Part shown: one piece after another, positions 19,534 through 22,353 of the stretch
Numbering within the stretch: position 1 is the first letter of the stretch
Layout: the number at the start of each line of letters is the position of its first letter
From: Methanobacteriota archaeon
GTDB taxonomy: Archaea > Thermoplasmatota > Thermoplasmata > Methanomassiliicoccales > UBA472
Direction: 5' to 3'
Assembly: GCA_012729095.1 (NCBI GenBank)
Contig: JAAYDU010000016.1
Coordinates: 1 to 56,349 of the forward strand
DNA length: 56,349 nt
Program-made: the position numbers and the translations under genes
Notes under the pieces: generated by a model
Seen by the model: only the letters and a program-made list of their open reading frames with translations
Told to the model about the DNA's origin: nothing
Database searches by the model: none

Positions 19534-20766
19534 TCAGACGGAAAGACCGAGCATGACTATGACAGCCATTAGTGCCAGCGAACCTATGAAATCGATGGCC
19601 GATGACGTCACGGGAATGCTGTGGTCGTCGGGGTCCAAAGAGAACATGAAGGTGGTCACCGCCACATAGTACGAGAGGAAGTTCAGAACGGTCACGGTCA
19701 CCAGCCCGGACACAAGGCCCAGGGTGATCATCGTCAACAGGCCGGGGGACGCCAGGCCGAGAGCGACGCACACGAAGTGTGTGGCGATGCTGACGAAGGT
19801 GAACGCCCACAGCGCGAAAATGTAGATAATGGCGAAGTTCTCGTAGCTGACCTTCCCTGGAACTTTCCCAGGCACCATGATACCCATGTGCAGGAGGGAG
19901 GACATGCGGGACGTCAGTATTCCCCCCAGGGCGTTGCAGTTCTGCAGGAACAGAGGGATCAGCACCAGGAGAGCGGGGAACGCCACCAGGTGGCTTATCT
20001 GGTCCTCGATGGTGAGCCCGGCGCCCAGGTCAAGGAGTATGCATATGATCAGGACAGGGGAGCTCTGCACGAATATGCGCTTGGCCTCCTCATCCCTTCG
20101 GTACAGCGCCTCATAGACCAGATAGACGGTGATCAGAAGGAACACCACCACCATGATGTCGTAGAAGGTGGCGGCGATGTCCCCGTTCCAGTTCAGCACC
20201 AGTATACCGGCCAGGAAGAGCATCGGCAGCGTCACGATATCGCCGGCGGCGGTGAGCAGCGGTGCGCTTATGTTGTCGATGTCCCAGTCGCGCCGGAAGC
20301 CTATATTGGCCACTACCACGTTCACAACCAAAAGGACCAGGCCGGCAAGCACCCCGCCGAACACCGAGATGAAGATGAACTGCTGCATGCTGATGCTGTC
20401 GATGCCCAGGGCGGTTGACACTATCTTGGCCAGGAACCCCATGAGGAAGGACACGACCATGGTCAGGATCAGGGATGCCTCCATGTTCTGCCGCAGTATG
20501 CTTCCCCTGCGCAGGGAGAGCTCGAACGTGCCCACGTGCATGGACGTTCCCAAACGGCTTCCCAACGCCCCGAATATGTTCCCCCTCATGCCTATGGCCG
20601 CCGGGATCAGTATCATCAGGCCGGGCAGAAGTTCGAGCGTGTCGGTCATGAAGCCCAGCGTCACGCCGGCCATGATGTCCCCGAGGGACGATATCAGCAG
20701 GGCGGTGAAACCCATGGTGAAGACCGCCCTGTTGTTGAAAAAGAAGGCCTTCACCGTACCGCTCAT
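19534..20766 (-). CDS. MgtE/SLC41-type divalent cation transporter
   Basis: 410 residues with about ten membrane helices arranged as two homologous halves. The first half has ILIPAAIGMRGNIFGALGSRLGT, the second LIPLFLQNCNALGGILTSRMSS, and DPDDHSIPVTSSAIDFIG lies near the end. These are the Mg2+-site motifs of MgtE/SLC41 integral domains. There is no cytosolic CBS or N domain, so gating must be by other means. The divergent PhoU-TrkA_C pair is a likely regulatory partner, as seen in other archaea. Mg2+ is the likely substrate; other divalent ions are possible. Confidence 0.85.
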   Translation of the reverse strand: MSGTVKAFFFNNRAVFTMGFTALLISSLGDIMAGVTLGFMTDTLELLPGLMILIPAAIGMRGNIFGALGSRLGTSMHVGTFELSLRRGSILRQNMEASLILTMVVSFLMGFLAKIVSTALGIDSISMQQFIFISVFGGVLAGLVLLVVNVVVANIGFRRDWDIDNISAPLLTAAGDIVTLPMLFLAGILVLNWNGDIAATFYDIMVVVFLLITVYLVYEALYRRDEEAKRIFVQSSPVLIICILLDLGAGLTIEDQISHLVAFPALLVLIPLFLQNCNALGGILTSRMSSLLHMGIMVPGKVPGKVSYENFAIIYIFALWAFTFVSIATHFVCVALGLASPGLLTMITLGLVSGLVTVTVLNFLSYYVAVTTFMFSLDPDDHSIPVTSSAIDFIGSLALMAVIVMLGLSV

Positions 20767-20810: not shown

Positions 20811-20911
20811 GTCATCTGTACGACCAGACGGCCGTTCCAGTGAGCTGTTGGCAAGGTTTTCAGTCTCACGAATTCGCAACGATGATATATGGTTAACTTC
20901 ATAAGGAAAGG

Positions 20912-21042
20912 ATGCGAGCCCGCCAGGCCGTTAGCGGCTGGTGGTCCCGTGAGGCCAACTGAGATGTCACTAGCGATATCCATATCCCACCCCCGCAGCA
21001 GCTGGAGGTCCATCGCAGTGACACGGCGCAGGTGTTCTTTTT
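20912..21042 (+). ncRNA. Structured 5' leader upstream of the PhoU-TrkA_C genes (candidate cis-regulatory RNA)
   Basis: A TATA element (GATATATG, 20884-20891) places the transcript start near 20912, about 130 nt before the ATG. Hairpin 1 (20921-20943) has a bulged G and a UUAG loop. Hairpin 2 is long-range: TGTCACT-a-GCGAT (20965-20977) pairs with ATCGCAGTGACA (21012-21023) in 12 pairs with a single bulged A, enclosing about 34 nt that contain GGAGG. AGGTG at 21031-21035 is a Shine-Dalgarno sequence for the ATG at 21043. No known riboswitch class was recognised. The fold is seen in the sequence; the regulatory role is inference. Confidence 0.5.
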
Positions 21043-21693
21043 ATGTATGACCTTGGAAGGGAGCAACGTCTGGACAGGTACGACCTGGCTCATGCCACGG
21101 TCCGGGATATACTAACCGAGATGAAGGACATATCGGAGATCATGGTCGATCTGGCCTACGCGTCCATAATGTTCGACAGCGAGGAGATAGCCGAGGAGGT
21201 CAAGAACCTAGAGGAGGACATGGAGGAGCTTAGCAAGAGCATCCGCACCAAGGCGATGCTTTCCGCGCGCACCCACAAGGACGCGGCCAAGCTCTCGTCC
21301 TTGCTGGAAGTGGCCGCCGCCTCGAGGCGCATATCCAACGCCGCGGGGGACATCGTCAAGCTGATGGAGTGCGAGGTGGACAAGCGCCCATTCCTGACCT
21401 TCATTCTAAGGGAGGCGGAGGAGAAGATCAAGCGCCTGGTCCTTGAGGACGTTTCGGACATGGTCGGTCGCCAGATCGGTGAATTGGGCGTTGAATCGGA
21501 GACGGGGATGCGCATCATAGCCATCAAGCGCGGGAAACGCTGGATGTACGATCCCGAGGAAGAGAACAAGCTCAAGGCGGGGGACGTGCTGATCGTGCGA
21601 GGAACGGATGACGGATATGACGTGCTGCGCTCCTTCGCCAACGGCGACGAGAAGTGGCCGGAATACCCTGACGAAGACGAGGAGGAAGACTGA
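21043..21693 (+). CDS. PhoU-like / TrkA_C (RCK_C) regulatory protein, copy 1
   Basis: 216 residues. The N-terminal half is a helical PhoU-like domain (EMKDISEIMVDLAYASIMF, EEIAEEVKNLEEDMEELSKSI, AASRRISNAAGDIVKLME). The C-terminal 80 residues are a TrkA_C domain (IGELGVESETGMRIIAIKRGKRWMYDPEEENKLKAGDVLIVRGT), which binds small ligands or ions in transporter regulation. An acidic tail follows. It probably regulates the divergent MgtE-type transporter. Its stop overlaps the next start as TGATG. Confidence 0.85.
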   Translation: MYDLGREQRLDRYDLAHATVRDILTEMKDISEIMVDLAYASIMFDSEEIAEEVKNLEEDMEELSKSIRTKAMLSARTHKDAAKLSSLLEVAAASRRISNAAGDIVKLMECEVDKRPFLTFILREAEEKIKRLVLEDVSDMVGRQIGELGVESETGMRIIAIKRGKRWMYDPEEENKLKAGDVLIVRGTDDGYDVLRSFANGDEKWPEYPDEDEEED

Positions 21694-22268
21694 TGGACCA
21701 GCTGGACGAGATGCTACTGGAGCTGAAGGACTCCTCCGAACTGATGATAGACCTGGCATACTCATCCTTGCTGTACAACAACAAGGAGATAGCCGAGGAG
21801 GTCGTCCTTATGGAGGAGGTGCTGGACGAGCTGGCCAACGATATACAGAGACAGGCCATCGCCCGGGTCATGCGGGACAGGGACGAGGGGAAGGCCTTCA
21901 CGGTCATCAAGTTGGCCGCTGCCGTCGAGGAGATATCCGACGCGGCCATGCAGATCGCCATGGTCACCATAGACGATGATGAGCCGCACCCGGTCATCCG
22001 TCTGAGCATAAAGGACGCGGACACCACGATCACCCTTGCCGAGGTGAAACCGGGCTCGGACCTGATCGGGAAGAGCCTTGGGAAGATGCGGCTTGCCAGC
22101 CGAAGCGGCATGTGGGTGGTCGCCGTCAAAAGGGACCGCAAGTACCTGTACGGACCGGAGAAGGACGCCGTGATCGAAGAGGGGGACGTTGTGATCTCAC
22201 GAGGACCTCCGGACGCCGAGAAGTACTTTCAGGACCTGTGCTCAGGAGAGGAACGCCTGGAAGAGTGA
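21693..22268 (+). CDS. PhoU-like / TrkA_C (RCK_C) regulatory protein, copy 2
   Basis: 191 residues with the same two-domain layout as copy 1: ELKDSSELMIDLAYSSLLY, AAAVEEISDAAMQIAMV, then the TrkA_C part IGKSLGKMRLASRSGMWVVAVKRDRKYLYGPEKDAVIEEGDVVISRG. The two genes are clear tandem duplicates with diverged sequence and overlap by 1 nt. They may work as a heteromeric pair on the divergent transporter, which is inference from position. Confidence 0.85.
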   Translation: MDQLDEMLLELKDSSELMIDLAYSSLLYNNKEIAEEVVLMEEVLDELANDIQRQAIARVMRDRDEGKAFTVIKLAAAVEEISDAAMQIAMVTIDDDEPHPVIRLSIKDADTTITLAEVKPGSDLIGKSLGKMRLASRSGMWVVAVKRDRKYLYGPEKDAVIEEGDVVISRGPPDAEKYFQDLCSGEERLEE

Positions 22269-22280
22269 TGGGATAATAAG

Positions 22281-22353
22281 TAGCCCCGGGCAGATTCGAA
22301 CTGCCGTCGCAGGATCCAGAATCCCGCATGATTGACCGCTACACTACGGGGCT
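22281..22353 (-). tRNA. tRNA-Gln (anticodon CTG)
   Basis: 73 nt. The acceptor arm AGCCCCG pairs with CGGGGCT and the discriminator is A. The anticodon stem CGGGA/TCCTG encloses the loop TTCTGGA, giving CTG at 34-36. A T-arm with GTTCGAATC is present. The CCA end is not encoded. A TATA-like AATATTTA lies about 20 nt upstream on the minus strand. Confidence 0.93.

Follow-up and report, generated by a model that had tools for sequence, protein, structure and literature searches.

The leader upstream of two PhoU-TrkA_C genes in a Methanomassiliicoccales archaeon probably serves as the opening cistron of a coupled operon, in that a short ORF behind a 5' hairpin is translationally coupled to the genes that follow. 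The window, by which we mean the whole stretch of DNA analyzed, comprises 56,349 nt of contig JAAYDU010000016.1 (GCA_012729095.1; Methanobacteriota archaeon, Methanomassiliicoccales, UBA472), and all positions refer to it. An earlier reading, the original prediction, had seen in this leader a structured RNA, possibly sensing a metal or binding a protein, and had overlooked the ORF at 20964-21050. In the related loci compared here, what is found again and again across the order is a coupled leader ORF; the RNA structure is not.

Genomic context and distribution

The leader sits between a divergent gene for an MgtE-type transporter (19534-20766, minus strand; Pfam PF01769, two MgtE domains) and two PhoU-TrkA_C genes on the plus strand, the first at 21043-21693 (start ATG 21043; Pfam PF01895 and PF02080) and the second at 21693-22268, whose start overlaps the stop of the first as TGATG (21691-21695). 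Pfam bore out the original gene calls, with PhoU and TrkA_C domains in each of the two regulator genes and MgtE on the opposite strand, and matched no N-terminal regulatory domain in the transporter. A tRNA-Gln (CTG) lies on the minus strand at 22280-22353, 11 nt downstream of the second PhoU-TrkA_C gene. On the promoter side, a TTCGCAACGATGATATATGG-like stretch at 20876-20894 (plus strand) is near-invariant among nine members of the genus and holds a TATA-like box, GATATAT near 20885-20891, conserved across genus members; a transcript start near 20912 is predicted from the position of this box. The leader had been assigned to the regulator genes, an assignment that holds, and it is also conserved in the genus: the same leader was recovered from eight further genomes, seven through a DNA search and one (G015) through its protein only, and the named records among these relatives are Methanomassiliicoccaceae or Methanomassiliicoccales MAGs.

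PhoU-TrkA_C orthologues occur in 91 of the 147 genomes of the order, and upstream regions were compared for 88 loci within the order and 20 outside it. The regulator gene is divergent from mgtE in nearly all loci fetched from the order; in sister families of the class it follows mgtE immediately on the same strand, the two genes having close or overlapping ends. Judging from this sister-family gene order, a leader ORF may have replaced mgtE in the upstream role at loci where the two genes diverge. Loci outside the order in which mgtE is followed by PhoU-TrkA_C on the same strand were L118, L119, L125, L127-L129, L132 and L134-L137, and in family f21, also outside the order, the regulator gene follows a TATA-like box at leaderless distance. 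The PhoU-TrkA_C gene was absent, at the threshold used, from all listed genomes of genus g25 of family f6 (G094-G116 among others), where it seems to have been lost.

The leader ORF in the window and its genus

The leader ORF (20964-21050, plus strand; 28 codons, MSLAISISHPRSSWRSIAVTRRRCSFYV) is preceded by a GAGG ribosome site at 20951-20954, 9 nt before its ATG at 20964, and its TGA (21048-21050) overlaps the PhoU-TrkA_C start ATG 21043 by 8 nt as ATGTATGA. The AGGTG that had been noted just after a long helix is present at 21030-21034, before ATG 21043; this ribosome site of the first PhoU-TrkA_C gene lies inside the leader ORF, and both it and the GAGG are invariant in the nine genus members. 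All nine members that have the locus retain an ORF which begins at this same start and finishes on the main start. In eight of them, the window included, the ATG, the length and the stop position are identical and the ribosome site is shared too, and in the ninth, G018, one inserted nucleotide changes the frame, but the ORF still ends as ATGA at the main start. G015 has a different sequence in the middle of the leader and has lost half of the long helix, but its ORF still has 28 codons, ending CRCPFYV. The strongly conserved stretches of the leader, GAGGCCAAC and AGATGTCAC, correspond to the ORF's ribosome site and opening codons. An in-frame GTG at 20949 was considered as the start and rejected: G016 has ATG there, and ATG 20964 is preferred because G015 has GAG at 20949 yet retains GAGG and the later ATG. 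Pairwise differences among the genus ORFs are most numerous at third codon positions (303), followed by first (234) and second positions (181), and the codon signal within this genus alone is modest (p 0.007 for the whole ORF, 0.07 minus the last codons).

Recurrence across the order

Across loci, we counted ribosome-site-led ORFs of 18-40 codons whose stop falls between -8 and +14 relative to the main start. Such an ORF is found in 54 of the 88 order loci, which are related and not independent, as compared to a mean of 5.9 and a maximum of 14 in 300 sets of shuffled leaders; at the window itself the ORF has its ribosome site and its stop over the next start, and the class to which it belongs exceeds shuffled expectation. 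Separate families nevertheless show the ORF each in their own loci. By group, the counts were 9/9 in the window's genus, 7/8 in family f5 except genus g13, 8/8 in genera g26, g29 and g19 of family f6, 28/45 in the remaining f6 loci and 2/5 in families f2-f4, and none of the seven loci from other genera of the window's own family has a coupled leader ORF. In genus g13 of f5 an ORF lacking a clear ribosome site occupies the same place in 6/6 loci (2.1 expected). The background in the window's own genome (about 270 kb plus the window) was low, with a similar ORF before 7 of 148 genes that have an upstream gap; this locus itself and the terminus of an ordinary gene account for two of the seven. 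Rejected as a leader ORF was an own-genome match of 22 codons, very acidic, immediately before a gene with RNA polymerase Rpb1 domain 5; this match is read as the tail of the polymerase gene ahead of it.

Column permutation in eight groups gave a codon structure in the ORF frame that was positive or nearly so in each (p 0.007-0.06), with a combined p of about 5e-7 in a test that is mildly biased, upstream control stretches giving p 0.02; the other two frames of the eight groups gave p 0.07 and 0.81. Peptide sequence varies between families, and position and overlap stay.

Proposed coupling of the leader ORF to the regulator genes

From the ORF with its ribosome site and overlap, its recurrence, its codon structure and the hairpin before it, all read directly in the DNA, we infer translation, reinitiation and any regulatory signal. 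Ribosomes would load at the GAGG just past the 5' hairpin and read the 28 codons of the ORF, and their passage would sweep open the AGGTG within the ORF and whatever pairing the long helix P2 (described below) forms. After terminating at the UGA, they would reinitiate at the PhoU-TrkA_C AUG that it overlaps. As the two regulator genes overlap by TGATG, the chain of coupling would extend to the second one in like manner, and translation of the leader ORF would in this way set the regulator dose. Overlaps of the ATGA and TGATG kinds couple translation in Haloferax and Escherichia coli, in 13 of 14 pairs tested (PMC6728339). Against this explanation stand the modest codon signal within the window's genus, the mild bias of the permutation test and the lack of the ORF in other genera of the window's family. 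In addition, the 8-nt overlap of the window differs from the classical ATGA or TGATG, and constrained folding for an SD-unmasking switch revealed no consistent change in AGGTG accessibility and no sign that a ribosome on the ORF frees this site.

The ORF could also be a plain ribosome-loading cistron, whose peptide sequence is irrelevant and which merely brings ribosomes to a weak start. That families differ in peptide but share position and overlap would fit such a role, as would the tolerated frameshift of G018, and bacterial leader genes have been proposed to raise expression by reinitiation (PMC4833913). However, several families share an acidic motif that is also conserved within them, and the codon structure is selected, both of which exceed what loading would need; the main gene also owns a good AGGTG. 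We regard this plain role as possible but somewhat doubtful. The confidence given to the coupled leader ORF, to the loading cistron and to the Mg2+ sensing considered next overlaps, since the latter two are special cases of the first.

Acidic peptides and possible Mg2+ sensing

In most lineages the peptide opens with an acidic stretch, with 3-5 Asp/Glu in residues 2-16 against about 1 expected; SINSDDPEG, NSDSDDPG and TSDCDDDSD are examples. Peptides of this kind might act in the manner of mgtQ or mgtL, where an acidic N-terminus, with Pro, would destabilize the ribosome at low Mg2+, translation would abort and the expression of the coupled regulators would change. In bacteria and eukaryotes, acidic N-termini make ribosomes unstable, an effect that is sensitive to Mg2+ (PMC9718836), Salmonella mgtQ acts thus before a Mg2+ transporter (PMC8092293), and the leader adjoins an MgtE-type transporter in the order. 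We nevertheless consider this reading unlikely. The peptides of the window's genus have 0 Asp/Glu in residues 2-16 and a mean of 2.3 Pro, an N-terminus classed as neither acidic nor Pro-rich, and those of genus g13 of f5 and genus g22 of f6 show no acidic enrichment in the same residues. Moreover, the target would be the regulator pair and not the transporter, and the literature searched on archaeal Mg2+ leader peptides, or on PhoU-TrkA_C with MgtE, held no case of an archaeal ribosome responding in this way and no direct precedent. Mg2+ sensing is speculative in the window's genus, because the acidic residues are missing there. By analogy, there is a small chance that a leader peptide found across the order, and acidic in most of its families, detects Mg2+ because its nascent chain destabilizes the ribosome, and that by coupling it adjusts the regulators of the MgtE-type transporter, which would make it an independent archaeal counterpart of mgtQ/mgtL.

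RNA structure of the leader

Both structures described in the original prediction, a hairpin with a bulged G and a long helix, are present. The hairpin, P1 (20914-20950, plus strand), stands directly before the ORF ribosome site; its inner part (20920-20944) has 7+3 pairs with the bulged G20927, and outer pairs extend it to 20914-20950. It folds in 9/9 genus members despite an altered stem, with U-A, C-G and G-C alternatives at corresponding places, and its stability is z = -2.1 in the window and -1.5 to -3.1 in the relatives. On the strength of these compensatory changes we regard P1 as a genuine RNA element and as the only well-supported structure of the leader.

The long helix, P2 (20965-21023, plus strand), with 12 pairs and a single bulged A (20972) between arms 20965-20977 and 21012-21023, lies inside the leader ORF, its 5' arm beginning in the start codon and its 3' arm covering codons 17-20, and is doubtful as a conserved structure. 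Pairs 20966-20971 are kept in 8-9 of the nine genus members, and no member other than the window and two close relatives has all five inner pairs. Stem conservation and compensatory change, which had been proposed as a check, were seen within the genus for the 5' hairpin; only half of P2 was kept, with covariation measures in the genus alignment that were not significant (reached by 45-83 of 500 shuffles). Excess stability is confined to the 5' hairpin: for the P2 half of the leader, z is -0.9 in the window and near 0 in most relatives. The whole leader is not unusually stable either (z = -0.71; 45 of 200 shuffles fold as well), and its significance therefore has to come from comparison. Since the 5' hairpins cannot be matched up by sequence, RNAalifold gave a weak consensus for the genus alignment (-12.5 kcal/mol, covariation term 0.25). 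Rfam returned no match to E = 1 in 15 kb besides two tRNAs, and a covariance model (R1) matched only genus members, one copy per genome (22 family genomes, 52 loci).

A structured RNA sensor, be it a riboswitch or a protein-binding leader with the ORF incidental, is very unlikely: the compensatory changes of P1, a P2 register that pairs better than slid versions (82% vs. at most 52%) and the strong conservation of GAGGCCAAC and AGATGTCAC would suit it, but Rfam has no match, R1 is limited to single copies in the genus, 45 of 500 shuffles reach the P2 covariation, relatives show no unusual stability of the P2 half, and the conserved stretches coincide with the ribosome site and first codons of the ORF. 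What stands of the earlier interpretation is a real leader, owned by the regulator genes and conserved in the genus, with a compensatory 5' hairpin; its metal-sensing, riboswitch-type part finds no counterpart in Rfam or outside the genus, and its long helix lies in the ORF.

Other hairpins were seen in the order. In genus g22 of f6 (L077, L079, L090-L094) the leader ORF contains, ahead of the PhoU-TrkA_C start, a recurring hairpin of the form TTCGGCCTTAACGAAGGCCCCCGGA, with a stem that varies on both sides (GGCCTT/AAGGCC, GGCTC/GAGCC, GGTCTT/AAGACC), apparently covarying. In genus g24 of f6 (L063, L066, L073, L085, L095-L101) a small hairpin of the form CGGANNAGTTCCG lies between the promoter and the AGGTG of the leader ORF, and hairpins just before the leader ORF ribosome site are frequent in other genera also.

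Relation to known systems and significance

M-box and other bacterial Mg2+ leaders are structured leaders before Mg2+-transport genes, from which the present leader differs in having no Rfam match. Among leader ORFs, mgtL precedes mgtA. The mgtQ leader ORF sits between mgtC and mgtB of Salmonella and acts at the level of translation (PMC8092293). With both, the leader described here shares a short ORF with a ribosome site in a Mg2+-transport leader, overlapping RNA stems, and with mgtQ it shares acidic residues in most families. Unlike them, it has no sequence homology to either, is archaeal, precedes regulators and not a transporter, has a stop that overlaps the next start, is non-acidic in the window's genus, and any Mg2+ response of it is conjectural. 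The stop/start overlap and the ribosome site inside the upstream ORF are features of archaeal termination-reinitiation coupling (PMC6728339), from whose pairs our loci differ in an upstream ORF of only 18-33 codons behind a 5' hairpin and, in the window, in the 8-nt overlap ATGTATGA. Small ORFs in 5'UTRs of Methanosarcina mazei have been seen by Ribo-seq (PMC11456600). Those are translated small ORFs in archaeal leaders, mapped experimentally and described without an order-wide conservation analysis of the present locus, whereas the ORF described here is known from its sequence.

To our knowledge, conserved leader ORFs have rarely been described in archaea. The present one can be followed across the majority of families in the order, before regulators that adjoin a Mg2+ transporter, and is acidic in most of them. 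An apparent archaeal riboswitch candidate can thus be an overlooked small gene, and the locus offers a concrete place to ask whether an acidic nascent chain makes archaeal ribosomes, too, abort translation when Mg2+ is low, and whether cells exploit such an effect for regulation.
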